In this document: piece by piece, positions 1,547 to 21,068 of the stretch
Position numbering within the stretch: the stretch's first letter is position 1
Layout: every line of letters begins with the position of its first letter
Origin: Desmonostoc muscorum LEGE 12446
GTDB lineage: Bacteria > Cyanobacteriota > Cyanobacteriia > Cyanobacteriales > Nostocaceae
Reading direction: 5' to 3'
DNA length: 64,000 nucleotides
Assembly (NCBI RefSeq): GCF_015207005.2
Contig: NZ_JADEXS020000001.1
Coordinates: 7,277,001-7,341,000 of the forward strand
Position numbers and translations under genes: made by a program
Notes under the pieces: generated by a model
The model's input: the letters and a program-made list of their open reading frames with translations, nothing else
Told to the model about the DNA's origin: nothing
Database searches by the model: none

Positions 1547-2461
1547 CTAGATGGGGCCACCACCAGGAGCAGGAGCAGTATAGCCTCCAGGAGCAGGAGC
1601 AGTATAACCTCCAGGAGCAGGAGCAGTATAACCTCCAGGAGCAGGAGCAGTATAACCTCCAGGAGCAGGGGCAGTAGGCATTCCGCCGGATTCATTGACT
1701 AGTTGATTAATAGCTTCCTCGATGCTGACAGCAGTGGGAATAATTTCTGCCTCACCAACTACACCACCTGTAAAGCCACCGCTTTCAATTACATTTAAAC
1801 CTGTACCGTATCTACCAAACCGGATAATTCGGGTTAAGACGTTACCAGGATTGCGAGCATTTTCCCTTCTGAGCAAGGTCATGATCACGTTCTCGGATTT
1901 GCAACTTTCGGCAGCATTAACAAAACAAATTACGTTGTAACCATTGATCTTACCAGTCGCCAGCAGCAAGTTACTCAATTTGCCACCATTTTGTGCTACT
2001 GCTCTTGTCATTTGCCAGGAAACCGCCTGACACCGTTGTTCGGGTGACATATCATAACTTGCCGTTTCCCAAATGATTAGGGGCAATAGTAGTGTTTGAC
2101 CGTTCACTTGAACAAGTGTGGCTGGTGAGCCTCCTATTTGACCGCAGACAAAGGAGGTGGAAGAAAATGCTGATGGTTGTATTGGTGGATATACTGGAGG
2201 TGGTTGTATTGGTGGATATACTGGAAATACTTGTACTCCTGGATATACTGGAGGTGGTTGTACTCCTGGATATACTGGAGATGATTGTACTCCTGGATAT
2301 ACTGGAGGTGGTTGTACTCCTGGATATACTGGAGATGATTGTACTCCTGGATATACTGGAGGTTGTTGTATTGGTGGATACTGTGCCATTACGGGAGACA
2401 CCATAACACCAGAAAGCGCGATCGCACTCATCAAAATTTGAGAGGGCCACTTGAATTTCAT
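1547..2461 (-). CDS. COP23-domain secreted protein with repeat-rich ends
   Basis: 304 residues from an ATG at 2461. A signal peptide (about residues 1-26, ending VMAQ) is followed by about 65 residues of tandem proline-rich PPVYPGVQ-type repeats, then the COP23-like core beginning at SFVCGQIGG. The core has conserved cysteines (C in SFVCG, RCQAV, VICF, ESCKS) and a C-terminal VSIEEAINQLV motif. The last 40 residues are five near-identical APGGYT repeats. COP23 was first described as a circadian-oscillating peripheral membrane protein in cyanobacteria; its biochemical role is unknown. Both low-complexity tails come from tandem DNA repeats (1556-1675 and 2165-2375), so copy number should vary between strains. 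Paralogous cores occur at 58144 and 59352. Confidence 0.8.
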   Translation of the reverse strand: MKFKWPSQILMSAIALSGVMVSPVMAQYPPIQQPPVYPGVQSSPVYPGVQPPPVYPGVQSSPVYPGVQPPPVYPGVQVFPVYPPIQPPPVYPPIQPSAFSSTSFVCGQIGGSPATLVQVNGQTLLLPLIIWETASYDMSPEQRCQAVSWQMTRAVAQNGGKLSNLLLATGKINGYNVICFVNAAESCKSENVIMTLLRRENARNPGNVLTRIIRFGRYGTGLNVIESGGFTGGVVGEAEIIPTAVSIEEAINQLVNESGGMPTAPAPGGYTAPAPGGYTAPAPGGYTAPAPGGYTAPAPGGGPI

Positions 2462-2684
2462 AAATAAACCTGTGGTATGTCCCAGGATTATTTTATTTTT
2501 ATAGCAAGTGCCAAAGTGTTTAGGACAAACAGGAAAATATATGACTAAAGTAAAGCTGGATACAGATTAATCAAACTTAGGTAAACAACACCAAAAAAAT
2601 AGGCTCAAACGTATATTACAAGAGACTTTGAAATCATTGTATTAAACTATATACTGATTTTTGAAGGTTTATCCTTTTGAATTC

Positions 2685-3902
2685 ATGCGTCCTCGCCAGA
2701 ACATTTCGGAAATATTTTCGACTTTCATCCAATTTGAAGCCGATCGCTTCAACTGTTGGGTATATGATGCCAAACTACGGCGCAGTATCCAAAATTGCTT
2801 GGTACAAATATCTGAAACGAAACACTCGGAAAGTTTTTGGGCAATTTACTGGCATAAAAACTGGCAAAATCAGCCTAACTCTCTAGCTGAGGCGCATCTT
2901 TCGGCTTATCTGCAAGAAACCTGTTATTGGTCAGCGCAAAGGACGATTCCTCAAATTGCTAGTGTGCAGTGTACCTTGTCTGACTGTTTTCAAATAGCGA
3001 TCGCAGAAGTACCAAAAATTCTCAAAGCTTGCGATCCTGACCAAAAAGCCAGCCTCAAAAGCTACAGCAATGTGGCTTTTGGCAATGTGATTCGGGATGC
3101 TTTGCGGCAAAAACAAGAAATAGATTTTTGTAACGATTGGGCACTGCTACTAAAATTGAGCCGCAAGCGACTACAGGAATCTTTACAAAATGCTGGGCTA
3201 ACAGATGAAACTATTGCCCGTTACTTGTTAGCGTGGAAATGTTTTGCCGATGGTTACATTCTGGGTAAATCACCACAAGCGCGGAAGTTGCAAAGACCCG
3301 AACAAGATACATGGGAAGCAATTGCTCAACTTTATAACCGCGATCGCTTAACACAACTTAATCCACCAGGGACAGAATCCAACGCCCAAACTCTAGAAAA
3401 GTGGTTGCTGTTATCTGCAAAACACGCACGTTCTTATTTATATCCTGTGGTTTCTTCACTCAATGCCCCGAAAACAGGTCAAGCAGATAGTGAATTACAA
3501 GATGATTTACCAGATACTACTCAAAATGAATCTTTATTAGCAGATTTAATTGCCACAGAAGAAGCAGATATTCAAAAAAATCAACAACAAGAAATCCACA
3601 ATCTATTAATTACTACCCTGGCAAAACTGTCTCCCCAATCACAACAATTACTGGAATTGTACTATCAACAAGGACTGACTCAACAACAAATTGCTAAACA
3701 ACAGCAAATCCAGCAATATCAAGTATCGCGGCAATTGGCGAAAACGAGAGAGTCTTTATTACTGGCGATCGCCAAATGGAGTCAAGAAACAATGCATATT
3801 TCTCCAACTTCCAACGTGGTTAAACATATCAGTGCAGTATTAGAGGAATGGTTACAAAATTATTTCCGTAATTTAGAACCTCACTCCTCAAAGGAGCAGT
3901 AG
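2685..3902 (+). CDS. Sigma-70 family RNA polymerase sigma factor (divergent)
   Basis: 405 residues from the ATG at 2685; an in-frame TTG at 2661 would add eight residues, but homologues as I remember them begin MRPRQNI. The C-terminal third carries a sigma region 4 helix-turn-helix (LSPQSQQLLELYYQQGLTQ followed by QQIAKQQQIQQYQVSRQLAKTR in the next turn). The N-terminal half is helical and matches region 2 only loosely, so this is a divergent group-3 or ECF-like factor. The stop is 2 bp before the DUF1822 start, indicating an operon with the DUF1822 gene and probably the CHAT-CHASE2 gene. A role in membrane-stress signalling is inferred from context only. Confidence 0.7.
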   Translation: MRPRQNISEIFSTFIQFEADRFNCWVYDAKLRRSIQNCLVQISETKHSESFWAIYWHKNWQNQPNSLAEAHLSAYLQETCYWSAQRTIPQIASVQCTLSDCFQIAIAEVPKILKACDPDQKASLKSYSNVAFGNVIRDALRQKQEIDFCNDWALLLKLSRKRLQESLQNAGLTDETIARYLLAWKCFADGYILGKSPQARKLQRPEQDTWEAIAQLYNRDRLTQLNPPGTESNAQTLEKWLLLSAKHARSYLYPVVSSLNAPKTGQADSELQDDLPDTTQNESLLADLIATEEADIQKNQQQEIHNLLITTLAKLSPQSQQLLELYYQQGLTQQQIAKQQQIQQYQVSRQLAKTRESLLLAIAKWSQETMHISPTSNVVKHISAVLEEWLQNYFRNLEPHSSKEQ

Positions 3903-3904
3903 CT

Positions 3905-5041
3905 ATGTCATCATTTTGTGTTCCTCCGACTCAACTGTGGTTAGAGGTGTCTTTGGAAGTTCAAAATCAATCTTGGCTGCAAAGCCAGTCTAGTGTTAGT
4001 CCCCGTGGCCGTTGGAATGCCTTTCTAAATCAAGTATGCATTAGCACCTTTCTGCCTTGGTTGCAAGCAGAATACGTACCAGAAGCTACTATTGATACAT
4101 TGCCAATAACTTGGGAACTGGTCAACGGCACTGCTATAAATATCGATACAAAACGCTTGATTTTAATTCCAGATAAAAGCCTAGAAACTAGAGAATTTTC
4201 TGTACCACAAGAATGGATAGATATTCCTCAATGGGCAGGAGATTATTATTTAGCAGTACAAGTCAATCCCGATGGTCAATGGATGAGAATTTGGGGTTAT
4301 ACCACCCATGAGCAGTTAAAAAATCAAGGTAGCTACGATTCCCAAGAACGGACTTATTCTTTAGATGCCAATCAAATGATTGAGGATTTGAATGTACTTT
4401 GGGTAGTACGTCAACTATATCCTGAAGAACAAACACAAACAGCGATTGCTGCTTTGCCTATTTTATCAGCTACTCAAGTAGAAAATCTCTGGCAAAGATT
4501 AGAAAGTTCAACAAATCCTCGCTTGGAATTGCCCTTTGAAATTTGGGGAGCCTTGTTAAACAGCGAAGACTGGCCACAAAGATATACACAGAACCCAGCA
4601 CTTGTTAACTTGCGTCAGTGGTTCCAAAATATAGTTGCAGATAGCTGGCAAACAATAGAAACCTTCCTGGGTACACAGCCAGATTTTGCCTTTAGCTTTC
4701 GCCAGGTTACTGATGTGGCTGAGCAATCAATCCAACGAGTTAGGGAGATTGAGTTACCAAACAGCAATCAAGCTGTAGTGTTAATGTTAACATTGACAGC
4801 AGAAATAGATAATAGAGTAGGAATTCGTGCCCAGTTGTATCATAAAAAACGCAATTTCTATCTACCTATAAATATTAGTTTGACATTGATTTCTGCTTCC
4901 GGAGAAATTGTCCAATCAGTGCAAGCAAGGGAAACAGATAATTCAATCCAACTCAAGCGATTTAAATGTCCCCAAAACACGCGATTTACTCTTCAGGTTG
5001 TTTTAGATGATTTCAACTTTATGGAAGAGTTTGAAAGTTAG
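3905..5041 (+). CDS. DUF1822 family protein
   Basis: 378 residues, no signal peptide and no clear membrane segment. The sequence (PPTQLWLEVSLEVQNQSW near the start, then many Trp and Asp residues) is the cyanobacterial DUF1822 type, which is known only from genomes. It starts 2 bp after the sigma-factor stop, so the two are almost certainly cotranscribed and may be translationally coupled. In cyanobacteria this family usually sits next to a sigma factor and a CHASE2 protein, as here. A cytoplasmic partner of the sigma factor is a reasonable guess but is not shown by any motif. Confidence 0.75.
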   Translation: MSSFCVPPTQLWLEVSLEVQNQSWLQSQSSVSPRGRWNAFLNQVCISTFLPWLQAEYVPEATIDTLPITWELVNGTAINIDTKRLILIPDKSLETREFSVPQEWIDIPQWAGDYYLAVQVNPDGQWMRIWGYTTHEQLKNQGSYDSQERTYSLDANQMIEDLNVLWVVRQLYPEEQTQTAIAALPILSATQVENLWQRLESSTNPRLELPFEIWGALLNSEDWPQRYTQNPALVNLRQWFQNIVADSWQTIETFLGTQPDFAFSFRQVTDVAEQSIQRVREIELPNSNQAVVLMLTLTAEIDNRVGIRAQLYHKKRNFYLPINISLTLISASGEIVQSVQARETDNSIQLKRFKCPQNTRFTLQVVLDDFNFMEEFES

Positions 5042-5055
5042 GTGACAATTGGGCA

Positions 5056-5156
5056 TGGGGCATGGAAAAGATGATGGGGAGCAAAGGAGAAAGACTTACT
5101 GCAACTTCCCCTCATCTCCCTCATCTCCCTCATCTCCCTCATCCCCCCACTCCCAC
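5056..5156. repeat. Short tandem repeat tract (CCCTCATCT unit)
   Basis: Between the DUF1822 stop and the CHAT-CHASE2 start lie about four copies of CCCTCATCT, preceded by a GGGCATGGGG-type tract. This is a short tandemly repeated repeat of the kind common in Nostocales. The same unit recurs at 22480-22520 and, in inverse orientation and in frame, inside the Omp85 gene at 15691-15756. Confidence 0.8.
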
Positions 5157-5158
5157 CC

Positions 5159-7498
5159 ATGAGTAAACTGATCGTCCTCAACTTAGGAAAAGGAAACTTA
5201 CACCAAGGGTTTCCCACGATCGCTGCTCAACTTTGGCAAACGGATACTCCCACTCCCATGCAATTTACAGGTGGATTACCTGCTGCACCACAATTGGAGC
5301 ATCTTTATCAACGTTGGCAACAAATGTATACAGCTTTGTATGCTAGTTTGGGTTGGCGCAGTCGCAACATTGCAGATTTTGAAATTGATGAGGAAGACGT
5401 TACCCATATTTCCCAAGGCGAGTTTGACAACCTCTGCCAAGAATTACAACAAAGTTTAAATACATGGCTAAATAGTTCACTGTTTCTCAATATTGACCGG
5501 AAACTACGTACTCAACTGTTACCCACAGAAGAAATTCGTTGCATAATTACTGCCCAATCGCCACAGGTTTTAAAGCTTCCTTGGTGTCTGTGGCAGTTTT
5601 TCAGTGATTATCCACAAGCAGAAATCGCCCTGAGTCCGCCAGAATATGCCCGTTCTGTGAAAACAAATCCTAAAAAGGCTAAAGGTAAAGTCAGAATCTT
5701 AGCAATTTTAGGCGATCGCCACGGCATTGATATCGAAAAAGACCAAAATTTACTTCGGCAATTACCTAATGCTGAACTCAAATTTTTAGTTGAACCCAAC
5801 CGTTCCCAAATCACAGAACAATTATGGGAGTCAGGTTGGGACATTCTTTTTTTTGCGGGGCATAGTTCCAGCCAAGGAAAAGGGCGAATGCTGCTGAATT
5901 CTGGCGAAAGTTTAACCATTGAACAATTAAAGTATGGTTTACAAAAGGCGATCGCTCAAGGTTTGCAGCTAGCAATTTTTAACTCTTGTGATGGTTTGGG
6001 ATTAGCACAAGATTTGGCCGATTTACATTTACCCCAAGTAGTTGTCATGCGCGAACCCGTACCAGATCGGGTAGCGCAGGAATTTTTGAAGCACTTGTTG
6101 GCACTTTTTTCACGGGGCAAAACTTTATATACAGCCGTCAGGGAGGCCAGAGAAAGATTACAATCTCTAGAACATGATTTTCCCTGCGCCACTTGGTTAC
6201 CTGTAATTTGTCAAAACCCAGCGGAAATTTCCCCCACCTGGCAGGATCTCTGCGGTGGTCGGTTGGGTTTATATCTGCCGCGTCCGAATTTCAGACAGTT
6301 ACCACTGGTTTTTTTAAATAGCTTCAGTGTGACTTTACTTATCGTATTAATACGGTTATTCGGTGGACTGCAACCGCCAGAACTAGAAGCATTTGACCAA
6401 TTAATGCAACTGCGACCCAAAGAACAGCCAGACTCGCGGATTTTAGTAATAACTGTTACCGACCAAGATATTCAAGCCCAAGGAAAGGAACCGCGCCAAG
6501 GTTCTCTATCCGACAAGTATCTCAATCTGCTACTAACCAAACTGGAACAATACCAGCCAGCAGCTATTGGTCTAGATATATACCGAGATTTTCCCGTAAG
6601 TACCAACCAACCAGAACTAGCCAAGCGGATGCAAAAAAGCGATCGCCTGATTGCAATTTGCAAACGCGCCGATCCAAAATACGATCCCACAGGCATTTCA
6701 CCCCCGCCAGAAATACCAGAAACACGGCTGGGTTTTAGCGATTTTCTTGAAGACAACGATGGTGTAGTTCGCCGTCATTTGTTGGCAATGACTCCCAACC
6801 CGATTTCGTCAAGTTGCACTCCGGCTTCTGCCTTTAGTGTGCAGCTAGCATTTCTTTATCTGAAAAAACAGGGAATTACAGCCAAATTTACCCCAAATTG
6901 GGATTTACAACTGGGAAATAAAACTTTCCCACGCTTACAAAATCAGACTGGCGGTTATCAGTTCATAGATACCGAAGGTAGTCAGATTTTACTAAATTAT
7001 CGTTTTTCGCCCTCAGTGCAAGCGATCGCACCCCAAATCACCCTCACCCAAGTCTTGAACGGACAAATTAACCCCAATGCCCTGAAAAACCGGATTATTC
7101 TCATTGGTGTCACCAGTAATAGTAGTAGCGATTACTGGTATACGCCAGACAGTAAAAACCCTTCAGAAATCATCCCAGGCGTAATTATTCAGGCACAGAT
7201 GGTGAGCCAAATACTCAGTGCTGCTTTAGACCAAAGACCCTTGTTATGGGTTTGGAGCCAATGGGGTGATATTTGCTGGGTTTGGGGTTGGTCTTTGACA
7301 GGTGGTTTACTGGCTTGGTATCTTCGCAAAATAGCTTACGTCAGTATTGCCGTAACCGCAGCATTAGTTATTCTGTTTGGACTTTGCTCCCTCGTGTTGA
7401 CTCAAGGTGGCTGGATACCTTTAGTACCACCGATGATTTCTTTGTTACTTAGTAGTACTATATTTTTCTTGATCGCCAAAAAATTACAGAAATTGTAG
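5159..7498 (+). CDS. CHAT protease-like / CHASE2 membrane sensor protein
   Basis: 779 residues. The N-terminal 360 residues form a cytoplasmic CHAT (caspase-like) domain with the expected catalytic dyad, His235 in FFAGHSSS and Cys277 in FNSCDG. A transmembrane helix follows at about 380-400, then an extracytoplasmic CHASE2 domain (about 400-690, with the typical ITVTDQDIQ and NRIILIGVTSNSSSD segments), and two or three C-terminal helices. CHASE2 is normally the sensor part of cyclases and kinases; here no output domain follows it, so the CHAT domain at the other end is the likely effector. It lies behind the sigma/DUF1822 pair after a repeat tract, plausibly in one operon. Proteolysis of a partner in response to an envelope signal is inferred. 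Confidence 0.8.
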   Translation: MSKLIVLNLGKGNLHQGFPTIAAQLWQTDTPTPMQFTGGLPAAPQLEHLYQRWQQMYTALYASLGWRSRNIADFEIDEEDVTHISQGEFDNLCQELQQSLNTWLNSSLFLNIDRKLRTQLLPTEEIRCIITAQSPQVLKLPWCLWQFFSDYPQAEIALSPPEYARSVKTNPKKAKGKVRILAILGDRHGIDIEKDQNLLRQLPNAELKFLVEPNRSQITEQLWESGWDILFFAGHSSSQGKGRMLLNSGESLTIEQLKYGLQKAIAQGLQLAIFNSCDGLGLAQDLADLHLPQVVVMREPVPDRVAQEFLKHLLALFSRGKTLYTAVREARERLQSLEHDFPCATWLPVICQNPAEISPTWQDLCGGRLGLYLPRPNFRQLPLVFLNSFSVTLLIVLIRLFGGLQPPELEAFDQLMQLRPKEQPDSRILVITVTDQDIQAQGKEPRQGSLSDKYLNLLLTKLEQYQPAAIGLDIYRDFPVSTNQPELAKRMQKSDRLIAICKRADPKYDPTGISPPPEIPETRLGFSDFLEDNDGVVRRHLLAMTPNPISSSCTPASAFSVQLAFLYLKKQGITAKFTPNWDLQLGNKTFPRLQNQTGGYQFIDTEGSQILLNYRFSPSVQAIAPQITLTQVLNGQINPNALKNRIILIGVTSNSSSDYWYTPDSKNPSEIIPGVIIQAQMVSQILSAALDQRPLLWVWSQWGDICWVWGWSLTGGLLAWYLRKIAYVSIAVTAALVILFGLCSLVLTQGGWIPLVPPMISLLLSSTIFFLIAKKLQKL

Positions 7499-7599
7499 GG
7501 AAGGGAAGTGTAGTAATAAATTAGGTGTAAAAATTCTGAATTCTGAATTCTGAATTATTCTTAATAAATTACTGTGGCGATCGCTAATTAATTTCTCCT

Positions 7600-8382
7600 A
7601 TGAAAAAGCTACTTTGGTTTCACACTACCACCTTGATATCTACACTTACCTTGGGTATTTTTAATCCACCTGGAAATTGGGATGTACAGGCTCAAACCCT
7701 AACACCTACAAACAAAATCACCTATGTTGCACCAACATTACAGGAAAAGCCAGGAGAACCCAGAGGAAGACGTAGAGGTGGAGGTAGTCGTGGTTCCTGT
7801 AAGCAGTATGAAACTCTGACAGCTTTAGTACCCATAACGAAGACAGCAACTAAAGATTTAGTATGGGGACAATCAGTATCTCAAACCCCAACATTTTGGT
7901 TTTTTGTACCTGATAAGTTAAGCCCCAAAGTCCCTGTTGAATTTGTAATTCAAGACGAAGCAGATAATTACGTTTATCATACAAAATTTAATCCACCAGA
8001 AACACAATCAGGAATTTTTAGCCTACCTGTAAAACCTACAACACCTTTAGTAGCTGGTAAATCTTATACTTGGACTTTTTCTATTTATTGCGATCCTGAT
8101 AAGCCATCTGCTGCTGTTTATGTGCAAGGTTCAATGACACAAATGGCTCTCAACCCATCATGGCGACAACAACTTGAAGCAGCTAAAACACCATTGGCAA
8201 GAGCTAGTTTTTTTGCTGAGCATGGTATTTGGTATGATGCTTTAACAACTTTGGGAGAAAGTTTAAAAGATACTAAACACAAAGATCCAAAAATTGCATC
8301 AGCTTGGATGGATCTACTCAAACAAGTTAACTTAGTTCAGTCTGGTACAGATGCGATCGCATCTTGTTGTATTTCAAAATAA
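7600..8382 (+). CDS. DUF928 family secreted protein
   Basis: 260 residues with an N-terminal signal peptide (MKKLLWFHTTTLISTLTLG), then a basic glycine-rich stretch (RRGGGSRGSC) and the DUF928 core, recognised from LVPITKTATKDLVWGQSVS, TFWFFVPD and the helical C-terminus (FAEHGIWYDALTTL). DUF928 has no assigned function and is usually found near CHASE2/CHAT proteins in cyanobacteria, which matches its place 100 bp after the CHASE2 gene. Periplasmic location is inferred from the signal peptide. Confidence 0.75.
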   Translation: MKKLLWFHTTTLISTLTLGIFNPPGNWDVQAQTLTPTNKITYVAPTLQEKPGEPRGRRRGGGSRGSCKQYETLTALVPITKTATKDLVWGQSVSQTPTFWFFVPDKLSPKVPVEFVIQDEADNYVYHTKFNPPETQSGIFSLPVKPTTPLVAGKSYTWTFSIYCDPDKPSAAVYVQGSMTQMALNPSWRQQLEAAKTPLARASFFAEHGIWYDALTTLGESLKDTKHKDPKIASAWMDLLKQVNLVQSGTDAIASCCISK

Positions 8383-8505
8383 TATGATGTCAGCTTGAAG
8401 TTTTATTCGACTTAGCTTGAAAATAAATGGTCTCTTAATCTTAAAATAGCCCTAGCAAAACTGCTAGAGCTAATTCTATTGACTATTGCACCAATTCTAA
8501 TCGTA

Positions 8506-12923: not shown

Positions 12924-13259
12924 CTAACTAACTGCAAATCCATCGAATTGCCGCATAAATGGTGAATGATATGCTAGTACAATATCCTCTCTAGCAACTC
13001 CTAAATTTACAAGTTCATCAGCAAATCCAATCTCAGTTCCATCATGCTGTATCCAAATTTTGCCATCTTTAATATCAATATGCACCGAACAGCCATAGAT
13101 CCGTCGCTCGTCTTTCCATCCGGCACTAACAACTTGATAGTGATCTCGTTCTAAATCAAAAACAGGCATCACTTCAATTTCAGCCGATGAGAATTTATAG
13201 CTTGCATATTGCTCTAAAATTTGTTTTACTAAATGTCGATATTTCTCTATTTTTTCCAT
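12924..13259 (-). CDS. xisI: XisI-like protein
   Basis: 111 residues, with the full XisI family pattern: helical N-terminus (KYRHLVKQILEQYASYK), the central HYQVVSAGW and GCSVHIDIKDGKIWIQHDGTE segments, and a C-terminal LVLAYHSPFMR-type motif (VLAYHSPFMRQF). It overlaps the end of xisH by 13 bp, so the two are translationally linked. XisI was named as a factor controlling excision of the fdxN element in Anabaena; most XisH/XisI pairs, like this one, lie outside that element and behave as mobile accessory pairs. No recombinase (XisF) is nearby. Confidence 0.85.
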   Translation of the reverse strand: MEKIEKYRHLVKQILEQYASYKFSSAEIEVMPVFDLERDHYQVVSAGWKDERRIYGCSVHIDIKDGKIWIQHDGTEIGFADELVNLGVAREDIVLAYHSPFMRQFDGFAVS

Positions 13260-13663
13260 TCGACAATAACCTCCTTTTTCGGATCGTAAATTAAAAGCTT
13301 CAACTGATATTTAGATACCATTCTTTGCACAAATCGCTTTTCAAAAAAATTTTTGTAAGCTTGGTTGGGAACTGCTAAATACAAAGTTCGCTCTGGTTGG
13401 TCGAGTTCTAAAGCTTCTTGATAGTTGAGAAATTGCCCTAATGCTGTATGAAATGTTGAAATGGCAGATGCTTGCAAGAAGGTTTTAATTTCTACCGCTA
13501 TTTTATCTCCTGACTTTTCGGCTGCGAGCAATTGCTCTGCTCCCAAATCAATTAGCAGTTCTACTTCCTCAACTTGAATACGTAACGGGTCATCTGTAAT
13601 AGTCCAACCATCTTTTTGGAGCGCTTGTCTAACTGCATCGTGAAATGCATCTCTTACAGACAT
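13247..13663 (-). CDS. xisH: XisH-like protein (PD-(D/E)XK nuclease fold)
   Basis: 138 residues. The N-terminal RDAFHDAVRQALQKDGW helix, the D-X(n)-EIK core (VEELLIDLGAEQL-type segment followed by IAVEIKTF) and YLAVPNQAY identify XisH, whose fold is related to PD-(D/E)XK endonucleases; the EVELLIDLG and AVEIK residues would be the metal-binding set. First gene of a two-gene unit with xisI. A toxin-antitoxin-like or excision-controlling role is possible; neither is demonstrated by this sequence. Confidence 0.85.
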   Translation of the reverse strand: MSVRDAFHDAVRQALQKDGWTITDDPLRIQVEEVELLIDLGAEQLLAAEKSGDKIAVEIKTFLQASAISTFHTALGQFLNYQEALELDQPERTLYLAVPNQAYKNFFEKRFVQRMVSKYQLKLLIYDPKKEVIVEWKK

Positions 13664-16985: not shown

Positions 16986-17314
16986 GTTTTAATTCCTTTA
17001 CCCCTTACGGGGATGGAAACTAAATTAAAATCTACATACTCACTAAATCTAGCAAGTAATAGTTTTAATTCTTTTACCCCTCACGGGGATGGAAACACAT
17101 AGACAATGTGAATTAATTGACTGTCAATGAAGTTTGTTTTAATTCTTTTACCCCTCACGGGGATGGAAACAAGCTAGGTGCGCGATTGACAATTCGACCG
17201 CCTACGGGGTTTTAATTCTTTTACCCCTCACGGGGATGGAAACAATAAGCATTGCCCAAAATCCAACGTAGTACATGATGTTTTAATTCTTTTACCCCTC
17301 ACGGGGATGGAAAC
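16986..17314 (+). CRISPR. CRISPR array, leader-proximal piece (5 repeats)
   Basis: Five 35-bp repeats begin at 16986, 17062, 17136, 17209 and 17280. Each starts GTTTTAATTC, contains the short palindrome CCCCT.ACGGGG and ends GGATGGAAAC. The four spacers are 41, 39, 38 and 36 nt. The first repeat is a variant (CCTTTACCCCTTACGG in place of CTTTTACCCCTCACGG). A 27-nt partial spacer (17315-17341) follows and is interrupted by the Tn7-like element. No cas genes are in the window; the repeat belongs to a type widespread in cyanobacteria. The array continues at 20722. Confidence 0.95.
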
Positions 17315-17341
17315 ACGGTTACATCGCTGGGATCTTCGGGG

Positions 17342-17369
17342 TGTCACTTTACCGACATGATGGCAGTAA
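17342..17369 (+). repeat. Tn7-like element, left terminal inverted repeat
   Basis: Starts TGTCACTTTACCGAC and ends GATGGCAGTAA. It pairs with the right end at 20677-20704 (23 of 28 identical as inverted repeats). Confidence 0.8.
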
Positions 17370-17370
17370 A

Positions 17371-17805
17371 GTGGAAGCAGACGATGGCAGTAAATGCACC
17401 TCAAAGGTTGATTACTTCGTGATGTAGAAAATGCGCTGGCAGAAAATCCATGAAAGAGTGGAAGCAGACGATGGCAGTAAGTATAAAAATGGAAGCACAA
17501 TCGTGGCAGTAAGTATGTGCCACCAGTAAAAATCAAGAAAACCCTTATGTATCAACGGTTGTTAGGTTTACTGTATAAAAGCATTTACCCTACTTTAGGA
17601 GTGAGAATGTGAATATGGAAGTAGAAAATGCCGATGACATCAGTAGCAATGCGGTAAAAATAGCAGATAATATCATATACAAATACTGGGAAAAAACCAA
17701 TTTTAATGATTGTTTATTCAGACTGTAGAAAGCAGGAAATAGCAGTCCAGGCAAAGGTTGTAAAGACTAATAGGATGGTTTTATGGAAGTAGGTAGTGTC
17801 AGTAA
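17371..17805 (+). repeat. Left-end TnsB-site-like repeats
   Basis: Copies of a 22-24 bp motif, consensus TGGAAGCA followed by GATGGCAGTAA, at 17371-17393, 17458-17480 and 17489-17512, with weaker copies at about 17421-17444 and 17783-17805. Spaced repeats of this size at one end are typical of Tn7 transposase binding sites. The 17342-17899 stretch has no supported gene. Confidence 0.7.
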
Positions 17806-17899
17806 GTAGAAAGAATTAACGATTCTTAAATTTTGGAAGAAAAATATTGGCTTAAATATAAGTATGCAATTAAGGTAGAAATTGCATACCGAGGTAGCA

Positions 17900-18712
17900 A
17901 TGTTGACAGAAGGTGAGTTTAGCTCATGGTCTGCATCACTCTCATTGTCATCACAGCAGTATGGAATGATTCAAAGTATACGGAGTTCTCCACCTTCCAG
18001 ACGAGTCAGGGGAAGGGTTGGGAATGTTGTCGGGCGATATCCCAGTAAAAAAATGGGAGTGATAATTCAGTTTGAGAGCCACCGGAACGAATTGGCACGA
18101 ATATATGAAATGGAATATGACCCAGAGGTTTTAGAATATTACGACCAACCACCAAAAATCAAATTGCAATACTGCTGTTTAAATGGAAGACAAATAGGAG
18201 TATTACATACACCAGACTTTTTTGTAATTAGACGAGATCAGGCAGGTTGGTCAGAATGTAAAACAGCAGATGAACTGGAAAAATTAGCATCAAAAATGCC
18301 AAATCGTTACCAGTCAGATAGTAACGGCAATTGGCGATGTCCCCCAGGAGAAGAGTTTGCCAAAAATTGGGGATTATATTATCAAGTTTGCTCCGACCAA
18401 GAAATTAATTGGAGGAAACAGAGAAATCTCTATTTTTTAGAAGATTATTTATCGGATAAATTAGAAGTTCCCACACAAGAGATAGTTGAAACAATCAAAA
18501 TAATCTCCGCTAGTCCAGGAATAAAATTATCAGAGTTAATTGCAGCAGGAATCAATGCAGATTACATATATAAATTGATAGCAGACCAAAGGATATATGT
18601 GGACTTAGAATCATCCGCGCTATGCTCAGAAGCAGAAAGAGTGAGTTTTAAAATTCCCTATAAAACCACCAGAGACCAGAAAAATTATTCCCGAAGAAAT
18701 TCAACCATATGA
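17900..18712 (+). CDS. tnsA: TnsA-like transposon endonuclease
   Basis: 270 residues from the ATG at 17900, which has GAGG five bases upstream (an in-frame TTG at 17882 is less likely). The TnsA N-terminal nuclease pattern is clear: Glu64 in SHRNELARIYEMEYDP, Asp106 in HTPDFFV, and Glu119/Lys121 in SECKT, the restriction-enzyme-like catalytic set. The C-terminal part (VETIKIISASPGIKLSELIA) matches the TnsA winged-helix domain. The last about 18 residues run into the tnsB scar out of frame, so the natural C-terminus was probably altered by the deletion. TnsA cuts the 5' ends of the transposon and, with TnsB, gives cut-and-paste movement. Confidence 0.85.
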   Translation: MLTEGEFSSWSASLSLSSQQYGMIQSIRSSPPSRRVRGRVGNVVGRYPSKKMGVIIQFESHRNELARIYEMEYDPEVLEYYDQPPKIKLQYCCLNGRQIGVLHTPDFFVIRRDQAGWSECKTADELEKLASKMPNRYQSDSNGNWRCPPGEEFAKNWGLYYQVCSDQEINWRKQRNLYFLEDYLSDKLEVPTQEIVETIKIISASPGIKLSELIAAGINADYIYKLIADQRIYVDLESSALCSEAERVSFKIPYKTTRDQKNYSRRNSTI

Positions 18713-18725
18713 GGAGTTTTGGTAA
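18645..18725 (+). pseudogene. tnsB: Scar of tnsB: last about 25 codons only
   Basis: In the +1 frame relative to tnsA, the DNA reads FPIKPPETRKIIPEEIQPYEE then FW and a TAA that overlaps the ATG of tnsC by one base (TAATG). A tight stop/start overlap, proline- and charge-rich composition and position exactly where tnsB belongs suggest this is the C-terminus of TnsB, with the rest of the gene removed by an internal deletion that joined it to the end of tnsA. Confidence 0.55.
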
Positions 18726-19267
18726 TGCATTCTCCCGCAGGCTTATCCCAAGAGTTATTAACAGCATCTGATGCGGATAAAATAAATTATTTTACTAACT
18801 TTACAGTAGTACATCGGCTTTTAAAGCAAGCTTATGAAGAATTGTTAGATGCGGTGAACAATCCAGGGGGTGCATCATTAATTTTCTTGTTTGGTCCTAC
18901 AGGTGTGGGAAAAACAACCCTCTTATCTCAAGTAATGAAAATCATCTTTGAACAAAACCAAGGTTTAATGATGCAAGATTTAGCATATCTTCCCATTGCG
19001 GGAGTAGAAGCGCGTTCTCCAGACAGCGGTTCTTTTGATTGGAAAGATTACTACAAAAGCGTTTTAATTGCTTTAAGAGAACCATTTGCTGATTATAAGG
19101 TTAGAGTATCTAGTAGTCGGGTTTATGCTAGTGGTAGCGAACAAAAAACAGTAAAAGTTAAGCCTAACCTCGGTGATTTACGAGCTGATGTAGAGTATAT
19201 ATTTAGACAGAGACAGTTAAAAATTTTTCTAGTTGATGAAGCGCAACGTTTTGCCAAAATAGCTTAA
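18725..19267 (+). pseudogene. tnsC: tnsC, AAA+ ATPase truncated after Walker B
   Basis: 180 codons from the ATG at 18725, with GAGGAG eight bases upstream. Walker A is GPTGVGKTT (Lys63) and Walker B is FLVDEAQRF, both intact; reading then stops after FAKIA. TnsC proteins normally continue for another 100 residues or more with sensor motifs. In another frame the following DNA (19267-19386) is open and ends GGGNA-stop across the tniQ start, looking like the true C-terminus, so an internal deletion with frameshift removed the middle. TnsC is the target-selecting regulator between TniQ and TnsB. Confidence 0.8.
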
Positions 19268-19386
19268 ATGAGGAAGTAGCTGACAACCATTCATCGGCAG
19301 ATTCGGCAACGAAAATCAAACGCCAAAAACACTATCCTGGCGAACGAAATCCCAAAAGAGATATTGTTGGAGGTGGAAATGCTTGA
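19261..19386 (+). pseudogene. tnsC: Displaced C-terminal tail of tnsC
   Basis: Open frame reading NEEVADNHSSADSATKIKRQ, continuing through HYPGERNPKRDIV to a TGA at 19384-19386 that overlaps the tniQ ATG (19379). It is hydrophilic and basic, as TnsC tails often are. It is not in frame with the Walker-motif part. Confidence 0.55.
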
Positions 19387-20590
19387 TAATCAATTGAACT
19401 TAAAACCCCCTTGGTATACTCAACAAATAGATGTACCACAACGTAGTCATTTATATCCTTTAAAACCACTATTATTAGGAACAGCGTTTACTGAAAGTTT
19501 GACCAGCTACATTACACGTTTAGCTGCAACTCACCAAATTCCCACAGGAATTTTACTGGCTCAGGAATTAGCCCCTAAAATTAATCGCTATAAAGGACCA
19601 AATCCAGATAGTTTATCACAGATATTTTTCCACATCTTTTTTAACCAAACAGGTGCATGGAATGGAACTGGAACTATGGCACTTGAGCCTTTATTAGTTT
19701 TACAAAAGCTAACTCAACAGCCTATCTTAAAATATTTAACATTAATACCTTGGTCAAAAGTTGTACCAACTAGAAATCTCTTGCGTAAATATAAGGCTTG
19801 GTGTCCGTTATGTTATTCGGAATGGAGCAACAATGGTCTTCCACTTTACGAGCCATTAATTTGGTCTATTTCAACAGTTAAAATTTGTTCTAGACATCAG
19901 TATCCTTTAATGAATTATTGTCCCAACTGTGGTCAAAATGTTTACTTGTTAGCTTGGAATACTAAAAATGGATTTTGCTGTAGATGTCATTATTGGTTGG
20001 GTACAGCTTGTTCAATGCTAGAATCAAAATTCTATCATACCGAAGAAGGAGAATGGCACAATTTTGTTGCCCAACAAGTTGGAGAACTAATTGCTCAAAC
20101 ACCATATTTAATTGAACCACCAAATCGAGAATCAGTCGCTCTAGCTATAAATAAGTGTATTGATGTTGTGACTCAGGGTAATGCTAAAGCTTTTGCCGAA
20201 CAAATGCATTTAAGTCTTACTGTTCCTAGAGATTGGCGTGTTGGCAATGCATTGCCTCAACTTAATAAACTATTACGTGTATGCTACCGATTATCAATTT
20301 CTCTAATTGATGTTTATCTCGGCCGCCTTAATCTTGATAGCTCTATAGTTTTAAAGGATTTACCATTATCCGAACAATACTCTCAAACTAATCGCCCATT
20401 TGATCTAAATAAAGTGCGTTCCTTTTTAGAACTACATCAAGAATCTTTTCCACCCCAATCGCTCAAACACCTTGCATTCCAAATTGGTTATGACTCAGCT
20501 GATTTGTCCCGACACTTACCCGATTTGTGTCGTCGAATATCTGCACGTTATAAATTACACACCAAATCTTGTTTAAAACCCCGTGTATAA
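19379..20590 (+). CDS. tniQ: TniQ/TnsD-family transposon targeting protein
   Basis: 403 residues from the ATG at 19379 with GGAGGTGG just upstream; an upstream TTG is unlikely. The N-terminal TniQ pattern (PLLLGTAFTESLTSYITRLA) is followed by a zinc-ribbon set: Cys142/Cys145, Cys170/His173, Cys181/Cys184 and Cys200/Cys203. The C-terminal half is a helix-turn-helix-rich region (SLKHLAFQIGYDSADLSRHL). Length is between minimal TniQ and full TnsD, fitting a sequence-specific target-binding type. It is the only apparently intact core gene besides tnsA. In Tn7-like elements this protein picks the insertion site. Confidence 0.88.
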   Translation: MLDNQLNLKPPWYTQQIDVPQRSHLYPLKPLLLGTAFTESLTSYITRLAATHQIPTGILLAQELAPKINRYKGPNPDSLSQIFFHIFFNQTGAWNGTGTMALEPLLVLQKLTQQPILKYLTLIPWSKVVPTRNLLRKYKAWCPLCYSEWSNNGLPLYEPLIWSISTVKICSRHQYPLMNYCPNCGQNVYLLAWNTKNGFCCRCHYWLGTACSMLESKFYHTEEGEWHNFVAQQVGELIAQTPYLIEPPNRESVALAINKCIDVVTQGNAKAFAEQMHLSLTVPRDWRVGNALPQLNKLLRVCYRLSISLIDVYLGRLNLDSSIVLKDLPLSEQYSQTNRPFDLNKVRSFLELHQESFPPQSLKHLAFQIGYDSADLSRHLPDLCRRISARYKLHTKSCLKPRV

Positions 20591-20629
20591 TATTTATGAT
20601 CTTCCGTGCCTTTATACTTTCTTTCCTTT

Positions 20630-20704
20630 GTGGAAGCACTTCATGGCAGTGCCCTTGTGGAAGCACTTCGTGGCAGTTACTGCCATCAAGTGGTTCAAGT
20701 AACA
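20630..20704. repeat. Right end of the Tn7-like element
   Basis: Terminal inverted repeat at 20677-20704 (ending CAAGTAACA). Internal to it are two copies of GTGGAAGCACTTC.TGGCAGT at 20630-20650 and 20657-20677. These two internal copies run in the same direction as the left-end sites, while only the outermost site is inverted. Confidence 0.7.
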
Positions 20705-20721
20705 AAACCGATTGTGTACCA

Positions 20722-20833
20722 GTTTTAATTCTTTTACCCCTCACGGGGATGGAAACCCTTCAACTGACCATGAATCTTTGATAACTTCCATTTTTAAAGT
20801 TTTAATTCCTTTACCCCTTACGGGGATGGAAAA
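20722..20833 (+). CRISPR. CRISPR array, distal piece (2 repeats)
   Basis: Repeats at 20722-20756 and 20799-20833 with one 42-nt spacer. The final repeat carries the CCTTTACCCCTTACGG variant and has A in place of the terminal C, as expected for a degenerate leader-distal repeat. It is the continuation of the 16986-17314 array across the transposon. Confidence 0.92.
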
Positions 20834-20897
20834 ATTGAGATGGCAAATGCGATCGCATTGACTAATGGCGATCCAATACTGTTCGGTTAAGGCATCA

Positions 20898-20960
20898 GAC
20901 GCGATAAATCGCCGTCTCTACAACAATCAATTCTTTGTAGAGACGGCAATTTATCGCGTC
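20898..20960. repeat. Long hairpin repeat beside the array
   Basis: Arms of about 26 bases, GACGCGATAAATCGCCGTCT and its near-perfect inverse, around a 10-11 base loop. The GAGACGGCGATTTATCGCGTC sequence type is a dispersed repeat in Nostocales; no T-run follows, so it is not an obvious terminator. Confidence 0.65.
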
Positions 20961-21068
20961 TTTGCGTCTTTGTGATTGTGATTTGGTTTAAACTCCAGAA
21001 TAATAAAAATCAATTTTGCGGCATGATATCAGTATCACTTGATGTCACAATAGTTACTGCAAGATTCT

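Follow-up and report, generated by a model that had tools for sequence, protein, structure and literature searches.

Tn7-type transposons have been described at transfer RNA (tRNA) genes, glmS, comM and parE and at RNA-guided sites, and the available portions of four reports (PMC10293859, PMC11406308, PMC8649781, PMC11656645) do not name CRISPR (clustered regularly interspaced short palindromic repeat) repeats as an attachment site; the first of these, as far as available, also mentions loci with a short TniQ and no known selector. The literature searched contained no paper on CRISPR arrays as a Tn7 target, and a mention in the survey of Hsieh and Peters (2023) is possible. For one target selector, the TnsD of PDB entry 8v32, the structure is reported to have the att DNA bent and an arginine inserted at a CC/GG step (PMC12585508). 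Here, a 64,000-nucleotide stretch of the Desmonostoc muscorum LEGE 12446 genome (hereafter the window; contig NZ_JADEXS020000001.1, positions 7,277,001 to 7,341,000 of the forward strand) was analyzed, in which a Tn7-like element of 3363 bp with TGT...ACA ends (17342..20704, + strand) lies within a CRISPR array.

As judged from sequence, CRISPR repeats are the preferred address of the family to which this element belongs, most probably through a retargeted TnsD-like protein that would read the 3′ end of the repeat directly. The array of the window has seven 35-bp repeats, which on the + strand read ...GGGGATGGAAAC. Repeats 1–5 start at 16986, 17062, 17136, 17209 and 17280 (16986..17314, +), repeats 6 and 7 lie to the right of the element and start at 20722 and 20799, and all seven were above the gathering score of Rfam CRISPR-DR37 on the strand in which Rfam writes the model. 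The 5 + 2 split and the coordinates given in a preliminary description, made from the letters of the window, were thus reproduced.

Copies in the host genome

The genome (9.6 Mb, 12 contigs) contained four full copies of the element including that of the window, identical over 3363 bases, and a fifth consisting of the left part only (1757 bases), which breaks off before a 435-codon open reading frame (ORF) that is transposase-like by eye. CRISPR arrays host all five copies, each codirectional with the repeats, and four repeat families are represented among the five arrays. Exact 5-bp duplications were present at three of the copies (AGCCC, CGTAG and TCTCT). Because repeats, spacers and duplications are distinct, the copies are independent insertions and not one duplicated array. 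The 435-aa ORF at the fifth copy (L012, 4412-5940) recurs at L014 (5531-6838), close to a degraded Tn7-like element of contig C2.

The pattern GGGATKGAAAC was found 85 times in the genome and, read backwards, 12 times. Seven arrays hold 63 of the 85 copies, and five of these seven arrays are occupied by the element. This concentration of exact motifs largely explains the preference for arrays: a protein reading the motif would reach arrays mostly, unaided.

Survey of relatives

TniQ served as query at the level of the family (217 genomes, E up to 1e-20), the order (388 genomes, 1e-60) and the class (388 genomes, 1e-80), in genome sets that overlap, and the two ends of the element were also searched in the 217 family genomes. 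A single-sequence scan of genome contigs gave no match, and an alignment scan gave two loci, both known already. Loci of the same kind in cyanobacterial genomes numbered 29, including the five of the window genome. Of these, 26 could be judged: 21 were inside arrays (11 genomes) and five were outside (L066, L106, L109, L111 and L223). L112 (G349, contig ending with the element), L075 (G027, a fragment) and L228 (G065, one repeat-like stretch) were left out; L220 and L221, which are matching ends on one G198 contig, were taken as one count; and L222 and L147 are array-adjacent yet nested with other elements.

Hosts included Calothrix sp. 336/3, Allocoleopsis franciscana PCC 7113, with two plasmid-borne copies of which one adjoins type III-B genes, Richelia sp. 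SL_2_1 and Iningainema tapete. A 5-bp target duplication was present in 8 of 14 two-ended copies (L067 being paired with its right end on L199; the left end of L111 was not located). The preliminary description had asked whether the selector recognizes CRISPR repeats or hit one by chance, and had proposed looking for independent relatives beside the same repeat family. With 5/5 copies in the window genome and 21/26 judged loci in arrays, recognition is favored; the relatives do lie in arrays, all in one orientation, but these are of many repeat families, not one. It had also named insertion at many unrelated sites as evidence to the contrary; this was not observed, since 5/26 loci were off-array and the four of these with a readable right flank have a repeat-like sequence at the same distance (see below).

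The control set was 86 TniQ loci not of the array kind, of which a repeat finder flagged 16. These comprise L118 and L119 (genome G193, discussed below), L147, eight loci with arrays judged by eye to be internal to CRISPR-associated transposons (CASTs; L157, L159, L161, L173, L181, L185, L189 and L190) and five judged by eye not to be CRISPR (L014, L079, L124, L141 and L182). At L147 (G186), an array-type element is represented by its right end, and the locus was counted among the array loci. A second Tn7-like element, with a TniQ that falls among other types, has inserted into this array-type element (about 2354-8400 of the locus); arrays are present on both sides.

Distance from the element to the repeat

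In 9/9 main-clade junctions, the next repeat on the right, tniQ side had its 3′ end (GAAAC) 52, 53, 53, 52, 53, 52, 51, 52 and 52 bp from the end of the element, and at five other array junctions the distance was 50, 48, 49, 50 and 48 bp; these 14 are every array right junction available. From the left-hand repeat to the element, 12-31 bp were counted over 17 junctions, and this upstream repeat was dropped as the anchor for being too variable. As the right distance is tight and the left distance variable, the position of the element is set from the repeat toward which its tniQ end points. In the window, the likely recognized repeat is repeat 6 (20722..20756, +), whose 3′ end is 52 bp off the element, and the distance together with the off-array sites predicts GGGGATGGAAAC (20745..20756, +) as the candidate target motif. 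A constant spacing between element and conserved sequence, by which TnsD-type homing is recognized, was found both in arrays and outside them.

Insertions outside arrays

The right flank was readable at four of the five off-array loci, and in all four the best match to a repeat end within 150 bp was at 48-53. These matches were GGGGAAGGAAAC at L109 (ending at 49, p 0.0001), TTGAATGGAATC at L106 (ending at 48, p 0.0009), CTCAATGGAAAA at L111 (ending at 50, p 0.013) and ATGAACCCAAAC at L066 (ending at 53, p 0.014), with a combined p of about 7e-8; L106 and L109, which carry duplications, gave p 2e-6 as a pair. P values were calculated with a matrix of nine distinct motifs and 20,000 random windows (5,000 for controls). 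Neither the left flanks (p 0.68, 0.85, 0.37, and 0.09 for L223) nor the reverse strand (p 0.51-0.86) gave a signal, and the right end of L149, the sister row of the array clade, was without a clear motif by eye.

Since the off-array insertions follow the same rule, they argue against a requirement for a Cas protein. The motif at the expected distance outside arrays, with the controls blank, suggests that TniQ, as a TnsD-like protein, probably recognizes the DNA of the repeat itself and does so independently of CRISPR machinery.

Relation to tRNA-targeting elements

An opposite-strand tRNA gene within 900 bp past tniQ was present at 34 loci, and a recognizable end was located in 33 by taking whichever of twelve listed end patterns matched first within 60 nt of the tRNA (none at L122). 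The tRNAs were 15 tRNA-Val, 12 Ala, 4 Leu, 1 Thr and 1 Pro, not all of them independent events. The tRNA gene began 28-32 bp beyond the right end, and the T-arm GAAC, read outward, ended 50-54 bp beyond it (mean 52.4, standard deviation 0.86); the mean for the array clade was 52.2. Insertion about 30 bp off a tRNA 3′ end was seen at no array-clade locus and at 33 loci outside the clade. The T-arm GGATTcgAAC and the repeat end GGATTgaAAC are alike: the T-arm consensus CGGATTCGAACC has 8/10 letters in common with the repeat end GGGATTGAAAC and 7/10 with GGGATGGAAAC.

A quick TniQ tree (97 rows) placed all array loci whose TniQ is whole, except the G193 pair, in one 20-row clade (support 100), and the rows around it include tRNA types. 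Rows of unknown site, some of which are within the clade, were scored as non-array, and loci without a whole TniQ (L074, L075, the array-type element of L147, L221-L228 and L012) were excluded. By sequence and fold, the nearest structure to the selector was 8v32, a TnsD bound to DNA. The TnsD fold including its helix-turn-helix part is present in the selector, which has about 395-415 aa; about 58 residues at the end of the 8v32 chain had no counterpart in it. A switch of target from tRNA to repeat may have taken place and is the preferred reading of these data.

Proposed targeting and its alternatives

We consider it highly probable that the window element is a deletion derivative of an array-homing family whose TnsD-like TniQ binds the 3′ part of the repeat and descended from readers of the T-arm. 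The selector would bind this part as double-stranded DNA (about GGGAT[T/G]GAAAC) and recruit TnsC and TnsAB, and the element would then be inserted about 50 bp off, into the spacer preceding the recognized repeat. From the tree, the distance and the motif, the ancestral selectors may have read the tRNA T-arm (GGATTCGAACC read outward) at the same distance. The window copy, because it has no tnsB, would have had to be moved by a helper. The only full-length TnsAB found in its genome belongs to a tRNA-Val-adjacent element and is 52% identical; this protein may have served as the helper, but a helper since lost is an alternative. Repeat ends of this kind encode the 5′ handle of the CRISPR RNA (crRNA) and are constrained, which would make them a dependable address, as tRNA genes are.

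Several observations weigh against this proposal. The duplication is absent from 6/14 two-ended copies, that of the window among them, and for the four main-clade insertions whose duplications are proven the two repeat distances are equally tight, so that discrimination between left and right comes from the remaining junctions and the off-array sites. Array repeats share their 3′ ends in any case, and the distance shows a repeat anchor, not the bases read; the repeats at L068, L074, L110 and L147 are without the GGG part. The off-array right flanks number only four, two of them with duplications, and their motifs were noticed by eye before the test, although the matrix, like the search window, was derived from array sites. 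The likeness of repeat and T-arm is moderate (8/10 for ..GGATTGAAAC, 7/10 for ..GGATGGAAAC), with matrix correlations of 0.59 (shift +1) and 0.56 (shift 0) against 0.52 for one reverse-strand alignment. The array clade also contains the off-array loci L109 and L111, and the label 'array' costs seven changes on the tree (shuffled mean 8.7, with 11/500 as low).

Recruitment by the host CRISPR machinery, with TniQ docking, as it does in CASTs, on an array-bound Cas protein or crRNA complex, would agree with the occurrence of CAST TniQ proteins in Cascade or Cas12k complexes (PDB titles) and with the targets being arrays with GAAAC-ended repeats. It was judged improbable: the off-array insertions share motif and distance, and the distance is sharp to about 1 bp and equal to that at tRNA genes. 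In addition, the coding-strand ORFs of at least 150 codons in the intact Calothrix 336/3 element are only tnsAB, tnsC and tniQ, with no cas gene among them, a check by ORF content without a cas profile search that passed over shorter and opposite-strand ORFs. Recognition of DNA shape, that is, of a cruciform or hairpin formed by the palindromic repeats, is harder still to accept. Many targeted repeats do have CCC..GGG arms right before AT.GAAAC (by eye), but L068, L074, L110 and L147 have no arms beside GAAAC (by eye) and the GAAAC distance holds within each group; the off-array sites L106 and L109, moreover, match the letters of the motif.

That the pattern arose by chance or as a by-product, through a broad inserter surviving mainly in arrays, where it does little harm, or through the copying of arrays with the element inside, is scarcely credible. 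Arrays are probably tolerant sites, and 5/26 judged loci are off-array, but the differing repeats, spacers and 5-bp duplications denote independent events, survival alone would not fix the orientation or a distance of 51-53 bp, and the motif-bearing arrays amount to roughly 5 kb of 9.6 Mb (estimated from 63 repeats at about 73 bp). Direct reading of the repeat end by TniQ is kept as the preferred explanation. The interpretation in the preliminary description is supported by these results, and its observation is confirmed.

A second lineage

An element of genome G193, with a TniQ 33% identical, was found in two different arrays (L118 and L119), once with the duplication CAGTC. Its orientation is opposite, with the tnsA end 10-11 bp off the 5′ end of the repeat. 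To the right, no motif was conspicuous at any one distance shared by the two insertions; to the left, counted outward from the element, the motif ends at 45 and 48. The nearest relatives examined (L139, L140 and L143) are outside arrays, and two events are too few for an explanation. Contig C9 of G193 (L131) has 4701 bases, the length of the element itself, which points to a collapsed repeat or to a circular form.

Organization of the window element

Several internal repeats resembling transposase sites were present at the TGT...ACA element's ends. The left end (17342..17881, +) is non-coding, with repeated TGGAAGCA..GATGGCAGTAA units that are putative transposase sites by analogy with Tn7, and the right end (20629..20704, +) has repeated TGGAAGCACTTC.TGGCAGT units and the terminus TTCAAGTAACA; the end repeats are likely, again by analogy, to be TnsB binding sites. 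Between the ends, on the + strand, are a tnsAB stump equivalent to the TnsA part (17882..18712, 276 aa; Pfam PF08722, E 1e-8), a short remnant of the C-terminus of TnsB, read in a different frame (about 18645-18722), a tnsC stump equivalent to the AAA part (18719..19267, 182 aa; Pfam), a tnsC C-terminal scrap (about 19255-19377) and an intact tniQ of 403 aa, the TnsD-like target selector (19379..20590; PF06527, E 8e-16).

The Calothrix 336/3 element is 5731 bp long, with open frames of 895 (tnsAB), 403 (tnsC) and 412 (tniQ) codons. Aligned with these frames, the window element has lost about 265-869 of tnsAB and about 193-357 of tnsC, and tniQ is aligned throughout. On this alignment, the tnsA gene is evidently a remnant of a fused tnsAB and the window copy a non-autonomous deletion derivative of the tnsAB-tnsC-tniQ transposon family. 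The gene content first proposed for the element (tnsA, tnsC remains and tniQ) thus holds for tnsC and for tniQ, which is the only intact gene, and has to be changed for tnsA. A G192 relative (L064) has deletions other than those of the window copy and likewise retains tniQ; these are two deletion derivatives in which most of the transposase gene is lost and tniQ is whole.

The left-side spacer piece (17315..17341, +) has 27 nt and ends in CGGGG, and the right-side piece (20705..20721, +), up to the likely recognized repeat, has 17 nt. A 5-bp target duplication was sought at the window copy and not found (CGGGG / AAACC). As the pentamers are unlike, the two pieces may derive from more than one spacer: the 27- and 17-nt lengths proposed earlier are correct, and their closing into one original spacer is not borne out. 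The flanks are likely to result from recombination between two insertions inside the array. If the element had instead entered a single spacer cleanly and the duplication had then mutated away, that spacer would have had 27+17-5 = 39 nt, within the 36-42 nt of the other spacers; this is rather unlikely for the window copy, given the unequal pentamers and a relative, L063, in which flank exchange seems real. At L063 (Richelia sp. SL_2_1, a 5917-base contig), one repeat family lies left of the element and another right, apparently by recombination between element copies.

Repeat 7 (20799..20833, +; Rfam CRISPR-DR37) is terminal and ends in ..GGAAAA. Spacers distal to the insertion might no longer be transcribed, as the preliminary description proposed. 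Directly after the array is a 27-bp near-perfect inverted repeat (AGACGCGATAAATCGCCGTCTC..., 20897-20961), and a palindrome resembling it directly follows the array of another copy (L004, right flank). Farther off, 12924-13663 of the window holds two overlapping small genes, which are putatively XisI- and XisH-like.

Comparison with known systems

Taken together, it is likely that arrays are a dedicated attachment site of this family, that its selector switched from the T-arm to crRNA-handle DNA while the 52-bp distance was kept, that the element lodges in, splits and shuffles cyanobacterial immune arrays, and that the G193 lineage reached the same target in the opposite orientation. The immune array itself would be a transposon address, an unexpected meeting of transposons and CRISPR. 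This would be a testable case in which a homing protein may change its target, from T-arm to CRISPR repeat, by a few bases with the distance unchanged. A transposon with a preference for arrays can split and, it seems, recombine them, a matter relevant to how CRISPR immunity is lost and shuffled, and a selector that seemingly reads a short DNA motif is of interest for targeted insertion tools.

CASTs, like the family described here, are Tn7-like and have a selector of the TniQ family; their targeting is RNA-guided, with effector genes and a guide array on the element itself, whereas here the array is outside, as the target. Tn7 with TnsD at glmS has protein-guided homing at a fixed distance, TGT/ACA ends and a 5-bp duplication, as here, but at a different address and with its tnsA end facing glmS, whereas here the tniQ end faces the repeat. 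Tn5469 of Fremyella, by its description in the available part of PMC11406308, is also cyanobacterial with one TniQ and no cargo and, unlike the present family, is listed as apparently untargeted. The tRNA-homing TnsD branch, comprising the TnsD of the type I-B2 PmcCAST (PDB 8v32) and that of the I-D CAST, has in common with the present family the tnsAB-tnsC-tniQ core, the selector fold, the tniQ end toward the target and about 52 bp to a GAAC motif. The family here differs in its TniQ of about 395-415 aa, in that no cas genes were seen among the coding-strand ORFs of at least 150 codons of the intact element, and in targeting a CRISPR repeat, not a tRNA gene.

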